The notes under the pieces are model-generated. The model was not told the DNA's origin and did no database searches. It saw only the letters and a program-made list of their open reading frames with translations. A DNA stretch of 64,000 nt from Pyrobaculum ferrireducens (GTDB taxonomy: Archaea; Thermoproteota; Thermoprotei; Thermoproteales; Thermoproteaceae): the NCBI RefSeq assembly GCF_000234805.1, contig NC_016645.1, forward strand, positions 2,208,391-2,272,390, read 5' to 3'. Positions 1 through 10,281 of this stretch are shown here, piece after piece; within the stretch, counting starts at the first letter, position 1; the number at the start of each line of letters is the position of its first letter. A program made the position numbers and the translations under genes.

Positions 1-214
1 AGTAGTAAAACTGCTCGTACCAAGGCCTGTCGAAGTAGTAGTACTGCTTGATTTTCTCAATAACCTCTGGCTTCGCCTTTTCCCCACCTGCCCACGCCCT
101 CACTGGGTCGGCCGGGATGGCGTAGGCTATCAGATAAGTAATAAAAACAACGCCGAAGATTGTGGGTATAAAGGTGAGTAGGCGTCTTATTAAAAATTTT
201 CTAAAAGAAGACAT
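1..214 (-). CDS. ABC transporter permease, DppB/OppB type (N-terminal part, cut by window edge)
   Basis: The frame begins with ATG at 214 and runs off the left end after 71 codons. It starts with a short basic segment (RKFLIRRLLTFIPTI), then a first membrane helix ending in YAIPADP, then an acidic/aromatic stretch (YYYFDRPWYEQF). This is the usual beginning of the inner-membrane permease of dipeptide/oligopeptide ABC importers (BPD_transp_1 family, DppB branch). It follows the binding-protein gene by 14 bp on the same strand, so the two are very likely one operon with the second permease and ATPases outside the window. It has no TATA element of its own. The substrate cannot be told from this fragment; archaeal members carry peptides or sugars. 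Confidence 0.85.
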   Translation of the reverse strand, partial: MSSFRKFLIRRLLTFIPTIFGVVFITYLIAYAIPADPVRAWAGGEKAKPEVIEKIKQYYYFDRPWYEQFYY

Positions 215-228
215 AGATGGGAAAAAGT

Positions 229-2499
229 TTAGGGTTTAAATCCGTATAGCTGTTGCCACAGTGTGGCGTTCCAGTAGTACGGGTTGTACTTCAACACTAT
301 GTATGAATCCTGCTGGTAGTCGGCTACGTAGTAGGGGCCGGTAGATATGGGCTTCTCGTGGAGAAGTCTGTGAGTGGCGTCGTCCTCGCCTGTCGTGACG
401 TATTTTGCCCACGCAGCCGGGTTCTTTCCGTTGTTAGAATCTGCTAGTGCCTGTTGGTACTTGTCGCCGAGGGCGTACTGCATCGACACAATCATTGTAA
501 ACGGCGCCGCGAGTATAGGCAGAATCGCCGGGTACGCCTGCGTCAGCTCGAGCTTGACCACCCCGGCCGTGGGGCCGGAGTAGCCGAAGATTTTCATCAA
601 GTCGTCCCAACTCTTCACGTTGTAGGACTTCCCGGCGTACTCTGTGACAAGCCCCTTGGAGAGCACTTGCTTAAACTCGTCTTCGGTCAAGACGGAGCTG
701 GCATTGACGTCTACGTATGTAGTGATCATCCAGCTGGGGTCCAGCGACAGCCTGGCTATCCTCCATATGGAGAACAACACGTCAACCGCATCGATGTCAT
801 AAACCTTGTTATTCCACGGCTCGTACGCCTTCATCCCACCCCTAATCACGAAATACCACGTGGTGCCGTTTTCGTCGTGGGCCCAAGCCACCGCTCCAGA
901 AGGCACCACGTACTCAGTATTCTCCCTCCAGAAGGTGACTAACGTAGTGCCTATTTGCGTGAAGATTTCCCAGCCAAAAGACTCGTAGCTTGCGGCGGGG
1001 TCAAAGCTCTGTGGCCAGCCGATGGTGGCTATGACGTATGTGTCGGGGCCGTTCTTGTAGTCCTTGATACCAGTGCTGACGACGGGGGCGTCCGGCGTCT
1101 CCCACAGCAGGTCGTATCTCTCGAGCTCCAGAGGCGTATAGTAGCGCCCCTTCACCCAGTTCCAGTTGTGCATGAAGAACTTTGCCTGGCCTAGCCATAT
1201 AATCGCGGGATCTACGTTGCTGGCTATCGATATCGCCTTGTAGAGAGCTTCTCTCAGCATTGGGTCAAAATGCGTCCTCGCGGCGACTATCATGGCGTCT
1301 ACATCGTAATTCCTGTAGAACGCTGGGTTGATGTCTACGAAACCTGTGCTGGCGTTCACTGGTTTGGTATTCGCCAGATCCACCTCGTAAGCCACTATGT
1401 AGATCTTCTTCCCGGCGGGGACCTCAGCCTTGGCGCCGCTACCCTTCGGTCCTACGACAACAACGGCTTCTCCCACGTCGAACACCTTCGCGGAGGAGAG
1501 CATGGAGGATATCTGCTGAGCCGTGCCCTCAACTACATCTAGCGTCTTGAACCTGGTGCCGCCGTAGAACAGCGGGCTTGCGTAGTCGTCTGGGTCCAGG
1601 TAGTCTGGTAGCCAGCCGATTATATACACGTCGAAGTCTCCCTTCTCCGTCTTGCTCAGCAACGTCGGCCAGTTCAGAGGCTCTGTGGTCACTTTAAAGC
1701 CTAGCCTGGCCCAGGCGTTGGCCAGGAGGGCCGCGGTCTGGGCGCGCTGGTCGTTGCCGAGGTTGAAGTCGATTACTATTGTATACTTTGTGGGATCTAT
1801 GCCGCTCTTCTTTATCAACTCCTGTGCCTTGGTAATGTTGTAGGTGTACTTAACAATGCCATAGTCTGTGTAGCCGGGCAGGCCCTTTGGAATTACGGCG
1901 TACAGCCTGGCGTATCTGTTTGCGTATATTCTGGAGAGGATTGCGTCGTAGGGCACCGCCCAGGCCAGCGCTTGTCTAACGAGTGGGTTGTTAAAGGGCT
2001 CCTTATTGGCGTTTAAGACGATGTACTCTATTGTAAGCGTCAGTAAGTTGGGATCCTCCCGTAGCTCTATCATGTAGTTCCCCATCTTAGTCCCCACCAC
2101 CTCGTTCAGCCTATCCAGCGGCACGGCGGCAATGTCAGCGGTTCCAGTCTTGTAGAGCTGTATCCTAGCCGTCGCGTCGTTGTTGATAATGTAGATCACA
2201 TTTTTGTGGAAGACCTTCTGAGGGGCAGTTGCCGTGGGTGAAGGCGAGGTTGTGGTCTGCGTCGCTGTGGGAGACGGCGTAGTAGCGGTGGTAGTTTGAG
2301 TTGTCTGTGGAGTTGTCGGTGTAGTGGTTTGCGTCGTAGTTGGAGTGGTTTGTGGAGTTGTCGTCGGTGGAGTCGTGGTGGGGGTTGTGGTCGGGGGGGC
2401 TTTTGGCTGCATCAGTAGCACAGCCGCGGCCGCGATCAACACAAGGGCAATAACAATACCGGCTAGCGCACCTTTTGAAATACCCTTAACTTTAGGCAT
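229..2499 (-). CDS. Family-5 extracellular solute-binding protein, domain order permuted
   Basis: This 756-residue lipid- or membrane-anchored binding protein for a Dpp/Opp-type importer has a membrane helix at about residues 10-30, a Thr/Pro linker at about 31-93, then the ligand-binding part outside the cell. The order inside the binding part is unusual. Residues about 96-480 match the second half of the SBP_bac_5 fold (DATARIQLYKTGTADIA, PLVRQALAWAVPYDAI, and the family's C-terminal end near FDPMLREALYKA). Residues about 484-756 match the first half (SFDPAASYES, TTWYFVIRGGMK, AVDVLFSIWR, and finally STGPYYVADY and KYNPYYW, which normally sit in mid-protein). The chain therefore ends where its own N-terminal part would continue. 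A TATA element at 2521-2530 lies 26 bp from the ATG. The permease gene follows by 14 bp. Confidence 0.88.
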   Translation of the reverse strand: MPKVKGISKGALAGIVIALVLIAAAAVLLMQPKAPPTTTPTTTPPTTTPQTTPTTTQTTTPTTPQTTQTTTATTPSPTATQTTTSPSPTATAPQKVFHKNVIYIINNDATARIQLYKTGTADIAAVPLDRLNEVVGTKMGNYMIELREDPNLLTLTIEYIVLNANKEPFNNPLVRQALAWAVPYDAILSRIYANRYARLYAVIPKGLPGYTDYGIVKYTYNITKAQELIKKSGIDPTKYTIVIDFNLGNDQRAQTAALLANAWARLGFKVTTEPLNWPTLLSKTEKGDFDVYIIGWLPDYLDPDDYASPLFYGGTRFKTLDVVEGTAQQISSMLSSAKVFDVGEAVVVVGPKGSGAKAEVPAGKKIYIVAYEVDLANTKPVNASTGFVDINPAFYRNYDVDAMIVAARTHFDPMLREALYKAISIASNVDPAIIWLGQAKFFMHNWNWVKGRYYTPLELERYDLLWETPDAPVVSTGIKDYKNGPDTYVIATIGWPQSFDPAASYESFGWEIFTQIGTTLVTFWRENTEYVVPSGAVAWAHDENGTTWYFVIRGGMKAYEPWNNKVYDIDAVDVLFSIWRIARLSLDPSWMITTYVDVNASSVLTEDEFKQVLSKGLVTEYAGKSYNVKSWDDLMKIFGYSGPTAGVVKLELTQAYPAILPILAAPFTMIVSMQYALGDKYQQALADSNNGKNPAAWAKYVTTGEDDATHRLLHEKPISTGPYYVADYQQDSYIVLKYNPYYWNATLWQQLYGFKP

Positions 2500-2520
2500 T
2501 TCTCTAGTAATATGTATGGT

Positions 2521-2530
2521 TTTTAAATAT
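2521..2530 (-). promoter_or_regulatory. TATA element of the binding-protein operon
   Basis: The A/T-only stretch lies between the tricorn gene and the binding-protein gene. Its centre is about 26 bp upstream of the ATG at 2499, which is the spacing expected for a leaderless archaeal transcript. Confidence 0.7.
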
Positions 2531-2534
2531 TGCC

Positions 2535-5500
2535 CTAATCCCCGCCCTTTATTAATTCTATGGCTTTATCCAGCTGGGGATCGCGGCCTTCTCTGTAGTC
2601 CTGCGGCGCTATTTCTACCTCTACGTCGGGGTCGACTCCGTAGCCCTCTATGCCGGTTCCGACGTCGTCTGTCCAGAAGGCGTATTTCGGCTGGGTGATT
2701 ATGGTGCCGTCTACCAGCTTGTAGCGGGTGTCTATGCCTACTGTGCCGCCCCAGGTCCTCTTGCCCACCACTGGGCCGAGCTTCAGCCGCTTGAAGTCGT
2801 AGGTGAAGATGTCGCCGTCTGACCCCGCGTGTTCATTTGTGACGAGCACCAGCTTCCTCGGCAACACCAGCTCGGGGTATGGAAACGGCTTGAAGTGGCG
2901 GGTGAGGAATTTTCCGAATATGCCCACGGCGGCTCTTAGGATCAGCATTCCTGAGGTGTGGCCGCCTCTGTTGTACCTCACGTCTATTATAAACGCCTCC
3001 TTGTCCCCCTCGGCGTTTAGCGATTTGAAAAACTCGGCGTATCCCGAGGGCCCCATGTCGGGTATGTGGATGTAGCCCACGGCGCCGCCGGTGCGCTGGT
3101 GTACGTAGCGCCTGTTCGCCTCGACCCAGTGGCGGTATATGATGTACCTCTCGTCGCGCACCGTCCTCACGATGTACCTCTTCACCTCGCCGCCTCTCTC
3201 CACCTCCACGGCCACCGTGTCGCTTGTCCTGTTTAGAAGTGCGTACTCGGGCGGCGCCCCCAGGCCGAGCTTCACGCCGGCGATTGCCACCACGCAGTCC
3301 CCCTCCCTCACGTCGACGCCCGGGGCGAGGAGGGGGGACTTCTCGTTTTCGTAGGAGGGATCCCCCATGTATATCTTCGCCACGCGCCAGCACCCGCCGT
3401 CCCACTTAAACTCGGCGCCGAGCCCGCCGACGAGGTAGGGCTTGTCCACCTCGAAGTCTGGCACTATTTCGTAGGCGTGGCTAGTGCCTAGCTCTCCCTG
3501 CATCTCGTTTATCAAATCGCTGAGTTCGTACCTAGTGCCGACGCGGCTCAGCAGAGGCTCGTACTTCCTATAGACGGCGTCCCAATCCACCCCGTTTAAA
3601 TCGCCCCGCCAGTAGTGCTCCTTCATCAAAAGCCAGGCCTCGTGGAACATCTGCCTCCACTCCCTCTCCGGCTCTACGTACACCTTTACCCGGGACATGT
3701 CGAGAACGCCGCTCTTCCGCCCAGGCTCCCTGGACTGGAGGTCGGGCTTCTTATCCACGTCTATGAGCCTAAGCCTGTTCTCCTCTTTGACTAGGACATA
3801 CCTACCGTCGGGCGAGGCCCTCAGCGCGGAGACGCCGGACATCAGCTGATCCTTCAGCTTGGTCTCTAGGTCGTATACCTCCACTGCTCCCCTCCGCTCC
3901 TGGGCAGACCAGAGGTAGTACCTCAGGGCGCCCTCCACGTCGTACTTCAGCCACGCCACCTTCCCCCCCTTCAGGCCGACCACGGCAGCGTAGAGGCCCT
4001 CCTCGACGGGGATCGGCTCCACCCGTGTGGCGATGCCCTCCACGTCTATATCCTCGGTCTTACCCTCAGCCCTTCTGTATTCGACAAATGGCGAGGTGTC
4101 GCCTTTCTTTAAGACTGCGAGGTAGGGTTTTGAGTGCTTGGCGAATATGTAGCTGAACTGCACGGGGTCCAGCGCGGGGTTGAGGGCCCTCCTGGATAGG
4201 AAATAGAGGTACCTCCCCTCTGGATCGAAGGCCGGGGAGTAGTCGTAGGCGGTTGGCGTAGTCACGTCGTACGTCCTCCTAGTGGCGGCGTCGAGGAGCT
4301 TGATGTTTTGGGTGTAGACGCCGGCTGGCTTGGCGTAGGCGAGCCACCTCCCGGAGGGGTGCCACGCCATCTCAGTGATGAGGCCGTACTCGCTCTTGTC
4401 TGCCAGCTGCGCCGAGCCCGTCTCCATGTCTATTATCCAGAGCTCGCCTCTGTGGTTCGCCGCGGCGAGCCTCGTCTGCCTCAGCGCCAGGGCCTCGATT
4501 ATGCCTATCCCGGGCTCCAGCCTCTTTATCAACGCGCCGTCCATGCCGTACACCTCCACGGCGCCGTCGTAGGTGGCCACGGCGACCCTCTCCCCGTCTG
4601 TGGCTATGTGTTTGTAGCGCACGCCGCCTCCGCGGGCGCCTAGCTGTAGCACAGCCCCCTCCCAGCTGGGGACGATAAAGGCCTGTCCTCTGGAGACTAG
4701 GGCTATTCTCTCGCCGGAGGCGAGGGCAAAGTACTCGAGGTACTTCACAGCGTCTACGAACTTGGCCATCTTCGCCTTGCGGGAGAGGGGCAGGTCGATG
4801 CCTAGCTTCTCAAGCCTATCCGCCGCGGGGTCGTACAGCCATATGTCCCCAGCCACCTGGAACACAACCCGCCTCCCGTCGCTACTGGCATTTCTCACGT
4901 AGTAGTCCTTGAAATTAGTGTGCCTTTTGAGATCCCCGCCTGCGAGATCCACGGAGTAGAGGTTGCCCACCCCCTCGTGGTCGGAGACGAAGTAGACTCT
5001 GTCCCCCACGATCATGGGGGAGGTGATGTTGCCCGGGAGGTCGAGGAACTTCTCAAAGGTCTTCCCGCCGTCTCTGCTTATCCACAGCACCCCCTTCGTG
5101 CCTCCTCTGTACCGCTTCCAGTAGGGGAGGTCGTAGGTATTTCTGCCCAGCACCACCACACCACCCCTCCCGTAGACCAGCGCGGTGGCTGGGCCTAGGT
5201 TCAGCCTTTCGTAGATGCCGTCTAGCGACACCGCGTACAGCTCGCGCCACTGGGGGAAGGGTGTTTTAAAGTCGCTGTAGACCAGGACCCTCCCGTCGGG
5301 GATCCATCCCACTATTCTGGTGAAGGGGGTGCCGAAGTAGGTTACGCGCCTCGGCTCCCCGCCTCCTGACGGCACCACATATACGTCGGCTGTCGTGCCC
5401 TGGTCCGTCTGCTGTAGCCGTGTAAAGGCAATCCACCTCCCGTCTGGAGAGAACTTCGGCCTCACCACGACGCCGAAGTCCGACGTAAGTCTCTGCCCCA

Positions 5501-5588
5501 CCCCGCCTGAGTACTTCCAGAGATCGTCCTCAGCTACGAAAACCACCTCGTCGCCGTAGATATCTGGGTGGAGGTAGTAGCCCCGCAT
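2535..5588 (-). CDS. tri: Tricorn protease
   Basis: This is a large cytoplasmic serine protease that trims peptides released by the proteasome. An N-terminal half of WD/Kelch-like beta-propeller repeats (repeats such as SPDGRWIAFTRL and SPDGRYVLVKEE) is followed by the C1 domain with the active-site His of TSHAY (near residue 704 of the revised protein), a PDZ-like domain, and the C2 domain with the nucleophile Ser of GSDGD (near 923) and the Glu of IEGYGVDPD (near 981). All residues of the tricorn tetrad region are present and the length (1017 aa) is normal. An in-frame ATG at 5618 lies inside the TATA element (5617-5625) and cannot be the start, so the ATG at 5588 (MRGYYLHPDIYG) is chosen. 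The gene is monocistronic; the next gene downstream has its own promoter. Confidence 0.92.
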   Translation of the reverse strand: MRGYYLHPDIYGDEVVFVAEDDLWKYSGGVGQRLTSDFGVVVRPKFSPDGRWIAFTRLQQTDQGTTADVYVVPSGGGEPRRVTYFGTPFTRIVGWIPDGRVLVYSDFKTPFPQWRELYAVSLDGIYERLNLGPATALVYGRGGVVVLGRNTYDLPYWKRYRGGTKGVLWISRDGGKTFEKFLDLPGNITSPMIVGDRVYFVSDHEGVGNLYSVDLAGGDLKRHTNFKDYYVRNASSDGRRVVFQVAGDIWLYDPAADRLEKLGIDLPLSRKAKMAKFVDAVKYLEYFALASGERIALVSRGQAFIVPSWEGAVLQLGARGGGVRYKHIATDGERVAVATYDGAVEVYGMDGALIKRLEPGIGIIEALALRQTRLAAANHRGELWIIDMETGSAQLADKSEYGLITEMAWHPSGRWLAYAKPAGVYTQNIKLLDAATRRTYDVTTPTAYDYSPAFDPEGRYLYFLSRRALNPALDPVQFSYIFAKHSKPYLAVLKKGDTSPFVEYRRAEGKTEDIDVEGIATRVEPIPVEEGLYAAVVGLKGGKVAWLKYDVEGALRYYLWSAQERRGAVEVYDLETKLKDQLMSGVSALRASPDGRYVLVKEENRLRLIDVDKKPDLQSREPGRKSGVLDMSRVKVYVEPEREWRQMFHEAWLLMKEHYWRGDLNGVDWDAVYRKYEPLLSRVGTRYELSDLINEMQGELGTSHAYEIVPDFEVDKPYLVGGLGAEFKWDGGCWRVAKIYMGDPSYENEKSPLLAPGVDVREGDCVVAIAGVKLGLGAPPEYALLNRTSDTVAVEVERGGEVKRYIVRTVRDERYIIYRHWVEANRRYVHQRTGGAVGYIHIPDMGPSGYAEFFKSLNAEGDKEAFIIDVRYNRGGHTSGMLILRAAVGIFGKFLTRHFKPFPYPELVLPRKLVLVTNEHAGSDGDIFTYDFKRLKLGPVVGKRTWGGTVGIDTRYKLVDGTIITQPKYAFWTDDVGTGIEGYGVDPDVEVEIAPQDYREGRDPQLDKAIELIKGGD

Positions 5589-5710
5589 AGGCCATCGTTG
5601 ACCCCCGTTAATAAGCATTTAAAAACGCCAAGGCCGTATACATCTAAAGATGGCAAACTCTGTGTTTAGAGCAATATGGAGGAAGCCCCCATTAGTGATG
5701 TCATCTATGG

Positions 5711-7045
5711 CTAGGTGGGGTCTATCACTGCTATAAATACGTCGTTTACATTAGTACCTGTGTATCCGGTGATTATGTCCCTGCCTAGATGGTTAAAGAA
5801 TGTGTAGCTGTCGTTATTGTTTAGGTATTCCAGTGGGTCTAGCCCCCTCGCCTCCGCCTCTTCCACGACTCCTCCATCTACCACAGCCCCGGCCGCTGGG
5901 CTGTTTCCATCTACGCCGTCTGTCCCCATGCAGGCGGCCGAGATGTTGCGCATACCTCTGATGGCGAGTGCAAAGGATAGGCAGAGCTCTTGGTTTCTCC
6001 CGCCGCGGCCCCCTCCCCGCACCGTGACGACTGTCTCGCCTCCTGCCAGTAGCGCAAGTGGGGGCCTCCCGGGCAGGCCGTGGTAAACAACGCTCTTCGC
6101 CACGGAGGCTAGGACCCGCCCCGCTTCGCGGGCCTCGCCCTCTAGCATCGAGGTGAGGATCAAGGGGCTGTAGCCGACGCCTTTTAGGTAGCCGCCGGCG
6201 CTACGTAGCGACGTCAAGTTATTGGCCACGATGATATTCCACACCTTGGCTAAGACTGGGTCCCCCTCCTTGACAGTGTCGCCTCCACTTTCTATAACCG
6301 CACGGATGCGTGTAGGAAGCTCTTCCCACAGCCCGTACTTTTTCAACACTCTTATGGCGAATTCCCTAGTTGTCCCGTCAGGCGCCGTGGGTCCAGACGC
6401 TATCGTGTCTAGACGATCTCCCACGACGTCGCTCACTATCAGCGACGCCACATGCCTAGCCTTTATGAACTTTAGGAGCTTGCCGCCCTTCACTCTTGAC
6501 AGCCTTTTCCTAACTGCGTTTAACTCCACTATATCCGCCCCCCTCCTCATCAACTCGCCAGATACGTGGGCAATATCTTCAAGCTGTATCCCCTCTTCCG
6601 GCAGTTCAAACAACGCCGATCCACCTCCCGAAATTACAACAAATACGAGGTCCCCCTCCCCCACGCCTTCAAGATATTCGACAAGGCGGTGGGAAGCAGA
6701 CAAGGTGTTGTCTTTAGGAATTGGGTGATCTCCCTTAACCAGCTCTATAGGCCCGGCGCGGCCGCCTCCGGTTGGCGTTATGACTACCCCGCCCCTCACC
6801 AAGTCGCCGAGTAGATCTACCAACGCCTCGGCCATCTTCCCCGACGCCTTCCCAAACCCCACGACGTGGACCCCTCCCCCCACCTCCACCGCCTTCCCTC
6901 CTACCTCGACTACGTCACCTCTTCTTTTCACGCTAGAGGCCACCGCCGTGTAGGGATCTGCCGCGGCCAGGGCCTCCTCCAGCGCTTTTGTCAACACCTC
7001 GCCGCGGGGGAGTTTTACAAGCGACTCACGGTTACGGATAGACAC
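5711..7045 (-). CDS. Glycerate 2-kinase (MOFRL family)
   Basis: The 444-residue protein has the two-domain architecture of type II glycerate kinases: an N-terminal GckA domain with GFGKASGKMAEAL and VVISGGGSALFELPE, and a C-terminal MOFRL domain with LLAGGETVVTV, GRNQELCLSFALA and AACMGTDGVDGNSPAAG. It phosphorylates D-glycerate to 2-phosphoglycerate and thereby feeds the products of the non-phosphorylative Entner-Doudoroff pathway into glycolysis; this pathway is known in Thermoproteales. A TATA element at 7064-7070 is about 24 bp from the ATG. Cytoplasmic, single gene. Confidence 0.92.
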   Translation of the reverse strand: MSIRNRESLVKLPRGEVLTKALEEALAAADPYTAVASSVKRRGDVVEVGGKAVEVGGGVHVVGFGKASGKMAEALVDLLGDLVRGGVVITPTGGGRAGPIELVKGDHPIPKDNTLSASHRLVEYLEGVGEGDLVFVVISGGGSALFELPEEGIQLEDIAHVSGELMRRGADIVELNAVRKRLSRVKGGKLLKFIKARHVASLIVSDVVGDRLDTIASGPTAPDGTTREFAIRVLKKYGLWEELPTRIRAVIESGGDTVKEGDPVLAKVWNIIVANNLTSLRSAGGYLKGVGYSPLILTSMLEGEAREAGRVLASVAKSVVYHGLPGRPPLALLAGGETVVTVRGGGRGGRNQELCLSFALAIRGMRNISAACMGTDGVDGNSPAAGAVVDGGVVEEAEARGLDPLEYLNNNDSYTFFNHLGRDIITGYTGTNVNDVFIAVIDPT

Positions 7046-7189
7046 ATTTATACGATATCACGGCTTTATACCTATATACCTATTACCCCCACCTATCCCA
7101 CAGAGAGGGCCTTACTCCAGCCCCTACGGCGTAGCCGTTTTCTGACCTCAAGTTGTGTAGTGGCTTGTTCAGCCACGTCCTACGGCGCC

Positions 7190-7608
7190 GTATTGATGTA
7201 CTGGGCTAAGCTGTGGACGGCTTCCTCAGCACATTTTCTCCAAGCGCCGCTTACCAGAAAAGGCACCTGCGCAACGGCAAGTCCCCGAGCCTCCCCCTCA
7301 AATTTCTAATTTCGAGAGACCCCTGATCACTGGGTGTTGCCTTTATCTCAATTCTGAAGTTCGCCCTGGTACGTAAACGTGAGGCGCCTCCCGCCGCCGC
7401 TATGCTATCCTCTTTAGTCTCCGCCATCTTTGAGGTGAGCGTTCTTTTTACCTGATATGCGGCTTATCTTCACAGCGGCCTCCCCCTAAGTATTCGCCGC
7501 CAACTTTGCTGTACATTGGACCGGATATAGACTAGCAACAACCTAAGGTCGTTATCAGCATCACATATCTCTGAAGAGGTTCGCTTGAAACTGGCCCGAT
7601 ATTCCTTG
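7190..7608 (-). pseudogene. Decayed second copy of the CoxG-like gene
   Basis: Read on the minus strand, this stretch aligns along its whole length with the intact CoxG-like gene at 8114-8554. Matching blocks include the 3' end (TTGATGTACTGGGCTAA at 7193-7209), the segment around 7254-7290 (GCGCCGCTTACC against GCACCGCTCACA), and the 5' end (CGCTTGAAACTGGCC at 7581-7595 against CACTTGAAACTGGCC). Many substitutions, small gaps and stop codons prevent translation, and no start codon remains at the expected place. The copy lies on the same strand as the intact gene, with the VKOR gene between them, so it looks like the remnant of a tandem duplication. Confidence 0.82.
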
Positions 7609-7682
7609 GTTAATGGTACTTCAATAGTGGTGTGCTGATTTGTCTGCTGTAGTCTCGTGAAGGTTGTTCACCTGGGTAATAA

Positions 7683-7690
7683 GTATATAA
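7683..7690 (+). promoter_or_regulatory. TATA element that decides the VKOR start
   Basis: The sequence GTATATAAAT ends directly in front of an in-frame ATG at 7691. With the usual 26-bp spacing, transcription would start near 7712, where an in-frame GTG occurs, so the ATG at 7691 is probably upstream of the transcript. Confidence 0.65.
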
Positions 7691-7711
7691 ATGCTGTGTC
7701 GTGTCGCTGTC

Positions 7712-8119
7712 GTGAGATATTTACTCGTCGCATTGGCGCTCTCCGCCGCGGGGATCTTGTCGAGGTTAGCGGGGTACGAGCAACTTGGTATATGGCTACT
7801 CGCGGCGGGGGGCTTGGCCCACACCCTCCTGAATAAGCCGGGAGATGTGTGTAGAAGAGGTAGGTTTGCCGGTTGCGTGGTGGTGCTCGGATCTCCATAC
7901 GCGAGGCCTCTTGGGATACCTCTTGAATACGTGGGGGCGGCGTGGTTCGGCGGCGTGCCCCTCGCGTTTCATCTAGGTTTTGGACAGATGTGGGCCCTAC
8001 TGGCTGTGTTAGGCGTGGTGTTGTTAGTCGGAATGGAGGTGAGGCTTAAGGCGCTGTGTCTATACTGCACAGTTGCGCACATAATTGGGCTGATATGCGC
8101 CGTCTTTCTACTTCTATGA
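7712..8119 (+). CDS. VKOR-family membrane disulfide-forming oxidoreductase
   Basis: This small integral membrane protein (135 aa from the GTG at 7712, 142 aa from the ATG at 7691) shows the hallmarks of archaeal and bacterial homologues of vitamin K epoxide reductase. A loop carries two cysteines (GDVC and AGC) followed by the conserved GSPYARPLGIP, and a later helix carries the redox pair CLYC. There are about four to five helices. The family re-oxidises a thioredoxin-like partner and passes electrons to quinone, as DsbB does. Thermoproteales are rich in disulfide-bonded proteins, so a role in protein disulfide formation is expected. The partner thioredoxin is not encoded next to it. The 3' end overlaps the convergent CoxG-like gene by 6 bp. 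Confidence 0.85.
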   Translation: MRYLLVALALSAAGILSRLAGYEQLGIWLLAAGGLAHTLLNKPGDVCRRGRFAGCVVVLGSPYARPLGIPLEYVGAAWFGGVPLAFHLGFGQMWALLAVLGVVLLVGMEVRLKALCLYCTVAHIIGLICAVFLLL

Positions 8120-8554
8120 TTCATTGATGTACTGGGCTAAATTCTGCGCCGCCTCCTCTGCCATTTTTCTCAAAGCACCGCTCACAAGCGAGGGCGCCAG
8201 CGTTGCGGCTAGGCCCCGGGCCTCGCCCTCGAATCTCCAGCTGACCACAGACCCCGAGCCGCCGGGGGTCGCAGCAACCTCTATTTTGAAGTCTGCCGTT
8301 GTCTGGAGCCCCGTGGCCCTCCCTACGACCACTACGCCGTCGTCGCGAACCTCTGCGTATTTGAAGCGGGCGTTCATCCTGCCGGAGAGGTGCCCAAGCC
8401 TCACCGACGCCTCGCCCATGTACTCATCGCCGGACTTCTGCACGTTGGAGACCCCTGGTATGAGCTTCGCCACCACCTCCGGCTTTTTCAACATCTCCAC
8501 CACCTCCCGGGGCGGCTTGTTCACTTGAAACTGGCCAGATTCCACCACGCGCAT
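8114..8554 (-). CDS. CoxG-like SRPBCC (START-fold) protein
   Basis: The 146-residue protein has the layout of the CO-dehydrogenase subunit G family: an N-terminal strand (SGQFQVNKPPREVVEML), a conserved IPGV segment (KLIPGVSNVQ), and a C-terminal helix (GALRKMAEEAAQNLAQYI) that closes a hydrophobic cavity. Family members help recruit or mature molybdenum hydroxylases at the membrane, but many archaeal copies stand alone and their ligand is unknown. No CO-dehydrogenase genes are nearby. The ATG at 8554 lies 26 bp from a TATA element near 8575-8584. A degenerate second copy of this gene lies at 7190-7608. Confidence 0.8.
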   Translation of the reverse strand: MRVVESGQFQVNKPPREVVEMLKKPEVVAKLIPGVSNVQKSGDEYMGEASVRLGHLSGRMNARFKYAEVRDDGVVVVGRATGLQTTADFKIEVAATPGGSGSVVSWRFEGEARGLAATLAPSLVSGALRKMAEEAAQNLAQYINES

Positions 8555-8655
8555 GGCCTACCGCTCTCGATGGTTATTAAATATTGTCAGCGAACTCGGC
8601 ACACTTCACCACTCCGCCAAGAACCGAATCATCACGTCGATGACCAGAGGCGTAT

Positions 8656-9822
8656 TTAAATGACGCCTCGGCTTTTCGCAAGCTCCCTCGCCATTTGGTA
8701 CAGCTCCCGGGGCCCAAGCGAGACATCGCCCACCTCCGGCGGCCTCTCCGAGAGGCTGACGAGACCCGCCTTCTCGGCCACCTTTCTAAGCCTCGCGACC
8801 GCCTCGGCGGCCTCCGGCCTTGTGAAGGGGCCGAGCTTCACCTCAAAGGCCCACAGCCTCCTACGCCCTCTTGTCAGCACCACGTCGATATCCTCGCGGG
8901 GCGAGTACCGCTGGACGGCTCCGTAGTAGCTGGCGAGCATCTCCCCCACTGTGAACTGGACCTCCCGCCCGATCGGCAACTCAGGCGGGGCCGCGCCTAG
9001 GTCGCTGACGCTGTACTTAGCCTCGGCGTAGAGGATAAGGGAGAGCACCGGCGACCTCACTGTGTAGTACCTTTCCCGCCCGAGGGTAGGCACAGCCCTC
9101 AAAACGCCCATCTTAGAAAGTTTAGAGAGGATGGAGGACGCCGAGGCGAGGCCGCCTCTGAGGCCCAGGGCCCCCGCCACGTCTGTGCTCTTCCAGTACC
9201 CCTCCGCCACCAGCAGTATAGCCCTCCAGTATGTATCAGTCAACTCCCTGTCCTCCTCCGTGAAGACCTCGCCGATGAGCCCCCTGGCGATCAGCGCCAG
9301 ATCCCGCGCCCTCTCCCTGAGCTCTTCTACGCTACTTATGTGGGGTATGGCCCACGGATCTCTCCACACCACGGCGAGGAGGGGGTCCCCTACCTGCGCC
9401 AGAACCTCCTCGTATGCAATTATGTCTATGTGGAGGGGGGAGAAGAGCCCGAGGAGGGGGCTGGACTTGTCAAATACCTTGTGAACAATCCCGTAGCTGG
9501 AGCCCGCCGCTATCAAAACCCCACGTGGAGACCAGCTGGCCACCAAATCCCAGTACCTCGTGGGAAACCGCTGGAATTCGTCAACCACGGCGACGCCGCC
9601 CTTCCTCAACACGGCGCCCACCTCCCTAACCGCCTCCTCCACCGGCACCACCTCGTCACCCACCACTGCGTGGCCCCCGCCGTGGCCCACCAGCACGTAG
9701 AGGTCATGGGGGGCACAAGTCCTAAGTAGCGTGGTCTTGCCAACCTTCCGCCTACCGTACAACAAAGTCCAGCTACGGGCCCTGGCCAACTGGCCACATT
9801 CACTACGTCGAATTATTCTCAC
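8656..9822 (-). CDS. Archaeal AAA-type ATPase with C-terminal nuclease-like domain (DUF234 type)
   Basis: This 388-residue protein belongs to the expanded archaeal P-loop ATPase family. Walker A is GRRKVGKTTLL near the N-terminus, Walker B is VAVVDEFQR, and the sensor-like segment is LIAAGSSYGIV. A winged-helix segment follows (TDVAGALGLRGG to LSKMGVLRAVPT). The C-terminal domain has the PD-(D/E)XK-like pattern DIDVVLTRGRRRLWAFEVK. The start is a GTG about 26 bp from an A/T-rich element near 9845-9851. The physiological role of this family is not established; copies are frequent and often decay in Thermoproteales, and two halves of another copy are found at 24676-25660 and 27690-27995. Confidence 0.85.
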   Translation of the reverse strand: MRIIRRSECGQLARARSWTLLYGRRKVGKTTLLRTCAPHDLYVLVGHGGGHAVVGDEVVPVEEAVREVGAVLRKGGVAVVDEFQRFPTRYWDLVASWSPRGVLIAAGSSYGIVHKVFDKSSPLLGLFSPLHIDIIAYEEVLAQVGDPLLAVVWRDPWAIPHISSVEELRERARDLALIARGLIGEVFTEEDRELTDTYWRAILLVAEGYWKSTDVAGALGLRGGLASASSILSKLSKMGVLRAVPTLGRERYYTVRSPVLSLILYAEAKYSVSDLGAAPPELPIGREVQFTVGEMLASYYGAVQRYSPREDIDVVLTRGRRRLWAFEVKLGPFTRPEAAEAVARLRKVAEKAGLVSLSERPPEVGDVSLGPRELYQMARELAKSRGVI

Positions 9823-9944
9823 CAGACTAGTACATATAGAAGAGTTAAAAATTTACGGATCCTCACCAAATCTCTTCACGATCTTTAGCGCCAAGTCTAT
9901 CAACTGCTTATAGCGCCGGTTTAATACTATATCTTTAACAATTT

Positions 9945-10281
9945 CTATTTAATAAGTTGATATTTATTAACAAGAACATTTCTAAACTTAACTATGTTCA
10001 TATAGAGTTTAAAATCATTTTCTGTAAAAACTCCGTGGATCATTAATTGTCTGCCGGCGTCTATATAGCCCCTGGCTGAGAGCCCCAGCAGTGAGACAGC
10101 CATCTCTGCCATGTCTATAAGCGCCTGGCTTTGAGACATGAGGAGATACATGGCGCCGTGCAACCTTTTTTGAATCTTCTAGATCCTCCGCCGTGTATCT
10201 ATCAAGCTCCGCCCCGTAGCTGAAGACGTATCTAGCCAGCTCTCTCAAGACCGCCATGTCTTTGAAAGCTGTGTCTCCCAC
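9945..10281 (-). pseudogene. Frameshifted HEPN-domain (DUF86/HepT-like) gene
   Basis: Two frames join into one HEPN-type protein. The first frame (GTG at 10281) gives LRELARYVFSYGAELDRYTAEDLED. The second continues with LHGAMYLLMSQSQALIDMAE and ends near KFRNVLVNKYQLIK. The switch falls at a run of six A on the coding strand (T at 10166-10171); one A fewer restores a continuous frame. In active HEPN toxins the C-terminal motif is RxxxxHxY (usually RNxLVHxY); here the His is replaced by Asn, so RNase activity would probably be lost even without the frameshift. The gene follows an equally frameshifted nucleotidyltransferase gene. Either a decayed type VII toxin-antitoxin pair or a homopolymer sequencing error. 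Confidence 0.68.

Follow-up and report, generated by a model that had tools for sequence, protein, structure and literature searches.

A gene near the start of the window (the whole 64,000-nucleotide stretch that was analysed, from the hot-spring archaeon Pyrobaculum ferrireducens) raises the question of how a family-5 solute-binding protein (SBP) of ABC importers can carry the second half of its ligand-binding domain ahead of the first. The reading that we consider highly probable is that the product would be one family-5 domain with a circularly permuted chain: the old C-terminus would have been joined to the old N-terminus, and the chain would begin and end anew at a loop of domain I, the one that connects the NPYYW strand with the strand after it. 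An N-terminal transmembrane anchor, followed by a Thr/Pro-rich linker, would tether this domain to the membrane, outside which it would catch short peptides for delivery to the DppBCDF-type importer of the neighbouring genes. We expect fold and binding site to be unchanged, and the point at which the tether leaves the domain would differ. On the same reading, the protein represents one of at least six or seven such order changes.

Segment order of the window protein

We named three segments, M, C and N, by their position in a normal family-5 protein, which reads N-M-C. The window protein reads anchor, Thr/Pro-rich linker, M-C-N (Table 1). Its match to PF00496 reached 191.2 bits in total (cut-off 32.4) and fell into two stretches out of order: profile positions 149–364 came first and positions 2–142 followed C-terminally, at residues 49–262 of a fragment beginning at residue 483. 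The earlier note had proposed a permuted SBP_bac_5 order and had named the profile match of the reordered sequence as its sequence test; after reordering alone (residues 486–756 followed by 93–485), a single PF00496 stretch covered profile positions 2–364 with 203.9 bits, which supports the proposal. The collinear N-M-C order was seen only after this rotation. A second, separate profile was made from 16 archaeal proteins of normal order; with it, the highest-scoring single stretch went from 152 bits over 222 columns in the native order to 246 bits over 450 columns in the rotated one. M, C and N are each present once, which excludes a tandem array or two complete domains. As in natural circular permutations, the segments occur once each, their order is rotated and the old termini are joined. 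The coordinates and break points given earlier were correct within a few residues. Between M and C lies an insert that is missing in normal-order relatives and matches the split termini of relatives with C-N-M order.

Table 1. Features of the permuted solute-binding protein gene and its neighbours (positions in the window).
Feature	Position	Strand	Basis or remark
dppB-type permease start, first of downstream dppB-C-D-F	1..214	-	rest past window edge, L006 6226-10214
Circularly permuted family-5 solute-binding protein CDS	229..2499	-	756 aa, ATG start; ORF, PF00496, dN/dS
Segment N, first domain half, residues 483-756, ends ..KYNPYYWNATLWQQLYGFKP	232..1053	-	PF00496 2-142, 58.4 bits scored apart
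New joint, old C-terminus to old N-terminus, residues 468-485	1045..1098	-	sequence segments
Segment C, C-terminal part of normal family-5 domain, residues 350-482	1054..1452	-	segment profile, 184 bits
Insert between M and C, residues 315-397	1309..1557	-	insert profile vs B1/B2 tails and heads
Asp299	1603..1605	-	gapless alignment to DppA Asp408 (1dpp alignment, residue 312 = 421)
Segment M, second half of SBP_bac_5 domain, residues 95-332	1504..2217	-	PF00496 149-364 at residues 99-314, 145.6 bits scored apart
Thr/Pro/Ser-rich linker, residues 32-94	2218..2406	-	S/T/P = 51/65 residues in 31-95
N-terminal hydrophobic anchor, residues 1-31	2407..2499	-	hydropathy 3.02 at residue 12
Upstream 1027-aa tricorn-protease-like gene	2535..5618	-	named from sequence alone

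The anchor appears to resemble the class III (prepilin-type) signal peptides of relatives: weak Pilin_N matches, below cut-off, were found in L034 and L010, and the Pfam search gave no Pilin_N match in the window protein. A TATA-like TTTAAAAA lies about 25 bases before the ATG (seen in window positions 2480–2620, minus strand), consistent with an own promoter and a leaderless message for the SBP gene.

Operon, selection and predicted ligand

The SBP gene is the first gene of an SBP-dppB-dppC-dppD-dppF operon in the window genome, where the downstream permeases were identified by Pfam and NCBIfam matches and the ATPases by NCBIfam matches. It is under strong purifying selection: dN was 0.09 and dS 1.5 against the Pyrobaculum relative L009, and 0.13 and 1.9 against L020. 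In the alignment with E. coli DppA (1dpp), Asp299 keeps the position of Asp408 with no gap, which makes it the predicted counterpart of a residue that in DppA contacts the amino group of the dipeptide. The complete dppBCDF operon, the strong purifying selection and this aligned Asp make it very probable that the product works in peptide binding. Ligands of family-5 proteins also include nickel complexes, glutathione and sugars, among others, and all NCBIfam matches of the SBP lie far under cut-off, among them the DppA equivalog (89 bits against a cut-off of 1005). A peptide is thus a predicted ligand, and its delivery to the adjacent permease a predicted role. The tricorn-protease-like gene is found upstream in L071 too; its product is a possible source of peptides, a matter separate from the permutation.

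Relatives with M-C-N and C-N-M order

We surveyed Thermoproteota. About 21 proteins of Pyrobaculum, Thermofilaceae and other Thermoproteota have the M-C-N order (type A), with full-length collinear relatives of the window protein in Pyrobaculum (L009), Thermofilaceae (L016) and several other groups of the phylum; the order is thus kept well beyond Thermoproteales, where the earlier note had asked how widely it is conserved. One type A reading frame (L086, 7238–11095) is open upstream, with about 550 extra residues (1285 aa in all), which is either a real extension or merely a late start codon.

Relatives with C-N-M order include two groups with differing cut points: type B1, from genomes that are Staphylothermus-like, Pyrodictiaceae-like or of other kinds, and type B2, which is more distant. 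Pfam reads both as collinear, because the C part alone has moved. One genome (G033) carries both a type A and a type B2 protein. Of the loci of types A, B1 and B2 that are uncut by a contig end, nearly all have a complete dppBCDF near the SBP (some loci stop at a contig edge), and outside Pyrobaculum these genes are 41–66% identical to those of the window genome. Divergently oriented permease genes were found in L012, L013, L014, L091 and L093, and in L074 and L075 the permease genes lie about 3 kb away from the SBP.

Beyond the phylum, the survey included one search of bacterial plasmids with the joint region, which matched 68 plasmid records; the matches listed start no earlier than the joint region, and 80% coverage of the query was reached by none, so that they give no sign of the permuted joint in bacterial plasmids.

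Further cut points

Type D (L110, L111, L114, L115) is cut within M, as seen in the search with the normal-order protein L034. Where the window protein has its Thr/Pro-rich linker, between membrane anchor and receptor, these proteins have a CARDB-like domain (the CARDB match is from L110), and identity to L034 across the domain is 70% in L110 and 67% in L111. The link from C to N in type D spans about five residues, which implies that both ends lie close in space. Type E (L126) is C-N-M without insert and nested within normal-order proteins. Type F (L135–L138) is M-C-N with a C-terminal membrane anchor. Finally, type G (L139–L143, L149) has a late cut in M: in a profile comparison, the first 205 residues corresponded to normal positions 436–564 (E = 8e-6) and the rest to 70–473 (E = 4e-31). 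L139–L144 and L149 are family-5 proteins of about 620–840 aa with an N-terminal signal, a C-terminal anchor and the late-M cut, and form a large separate permuted group.

Wherever a type had its joint read, the former C-terminus leads directly into the former N-terminus, and at least four cut regions of this one receptor fold were found within Thermoproteota. A paralog of 876 aa in the window genome (L007) has M first and N second, with an N match of 18 bits that lies under cut-off. This paralog (7559–10189 of its locus; C1, about 419.6–422.2 kb) has a C-terminal S/T/P-rich linker and membrane anchor, and is followed by two permease genes.

Number and proposed succession of order changes

A FastTree phylogeny of 84 proteins, with residues set in normal order and L007 left out, required 7 order changes by parsimony, and this number was unchanged when nodes with support below 0.9 were collapsed. 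A single clade of B1 and B2 was rejected (AU p = 1.5e-13). Monophyly of all type A proteins was not rejected (AU p = 0.29), and grouping all of them together would bring the count to 6. The deep branch positions of types F and G are uncertain. As judged from this phylogeny, the family appears to have changed its segment order at least six or seven times in Thermoproteota.

The insert of type A may keep a trace of former chain ends. Against B2, its profile matched the longer tails at columns 1–59 and most heads from about column 55–73 on (68–115 in L029); against B1, it matched tails to about column 40 only and heads from 53 on. These ranges imply that the VVVGPKG strand separates the points at which B1 and B2 opened this shared insert. 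The normal-order L034 has no such insert. The long link of B1 (..NKTLWNTKPYGENGKP) looks similar, by eye, to the C-terminal end of type A (..NATLWQQLYGFKP), and the B2 link is short and normal-looking. Since B2 branches first, these likenesses of insert and link suggest the succession N-M-C to B2 (C-N-M) to A (M-C-N) to B1 (C-N-M, at a slightly different point); a derivation of B1 from A is favoured by the tree shape and the cut positions. We tentatively propose, at somewhat less than even confidence, that the ring was re-cut stepwise within one transporter lineage, the beta-strand tails of one stage becoming the loop insert of the next as fossil chain ends. If true, tethered binding proteins of archaea would undergo circular permutation routinely and repeatedly.

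Proposed origin of the permutations

The simplest explanation of the order changes is that a tandem duplication was trimmed in differing ways. The earlier note had offered permutation or, alternatively, a tandem duplication whose outer halves were lost: the permutation stands, and duplication becomes a route to it instead of a rival. C-N-M and M-C-N could also have arisen if the gene split in two and the parts fused again in another order, an accepted general mechanism (PMC3320104) with which the lack of any tandem NMC-NMC intermediate among the sequences inspected would agree. We consider this route rather unlikely, however, as no split genes came to notice in passing either, and a tandem or ring that was cut repeatedly would account for the C-to-N joint, which is short and shared, and for the apparent scars (the insert matches). 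A 2059-aa reading frame (L155) was considered as a tandem intermediate and rejected, as it has a single normal-order domain. In that frame (3441–9620), the family-5 domain comes first, followed by stretches that look thioredoxin-like, beta-propeller-like and peptidase-like by eye.

Predicted folding of the permuted chain

AlphaFold2 models of the window protein (type A) and of a C-N-M relative (B1) had a confidence too low to judge the family-5 (cluster C) fold by (pTM 0.43 and 0.46), and Foldseek on these models returned local matches to family-5 SBPs with TM-scores of about 0.3, which are suggestive at most. Such models are compatible with subunit swapping, in which M-C of one subunit would complete N of its neighbour in a domain-swapped dimer or chain, for example in a bindosome-like surface assembly; in Sulfolobus, oligomeric assemblies of SBPs have been proposed in connection with prepilin-like anchors (PMC2910488). 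Swapping nevertheless seems very improbable: the short C-to-N joint (about five residues in type D) is expected if the ends adjoin in one domain, and so are repeated order changes without disturbance of the operon. The more natural reading is one chain that would fold on itself.

That two half genes were fused by decay or misassembly and yield no working protein, for which only the odd order itself speaks, has a negligible probability: the window genome is a single contig, the order recurs in about 20 further proteins and in many genomes, single-contig ones included, dN is far below dS and a complete operon lies beside the gene, which reject chance, misassembly and a pseudogene alike.

Comparison with known systems

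To our knowledge, reports of circular permutation in nature usually concern a single event of old date. In this family, one receptor fold occurs in several chain orders in one phylum, some of them in close relatives, and three of the groups (A, B1 and B2) lie beside the same permease genes. No account of a natural family-5 SBP with a permuted chain turned up in the open literature, which is the coverage of our search (most subscription papers lie outside it). The family makes it testable how permutations arise, whether the exit point of the tether affects how the receptor docks on its importer, and in which loops new ends are tolerated. There is a warning for annotation too: profiles split M-C-N proteins into two partial matches, and a collinear profile does not reveal the C-N-M forms at all.

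The window protein is like the SBP_bac_5 proteins of ABC importers (DppA, OppA, NikA) in its profile match, its segments, the Asp aligned with Asp408 and the dppBCDF operon; it differs from them in reading M-C-N and not N-M-C, in the insert between M and C, and in the Thr/Pro-rich membrane tether. The normal-order protein L034 (G004, 616 aa) shares with it the N-terminal anchor, the S/T-rich linker and the C-terminal signature W.hGwYYNPaf, but is unpermuted and without the insert; its N-M-C order is as expected of the precursor. N-terminally anchored archaeal SBPs with prepilin-like leaders are known from Sulfolobus, where the class III signal-peptide proteins of the bindosome are sugar-binding; permutation is not mentioned in the available part of that study (PMC2910488), whereas the window protein is permuted. 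Several chain orders per fold, explained by duplication or by fission and fusion, have been described for DNA methyltransferases and for saposin and swaposin (PMC3320104). Those are enzymes or lipid-binding proteins, whereas here the fold is that of a transport receptor on a tether, encoded next to a set of conserved permease genes.
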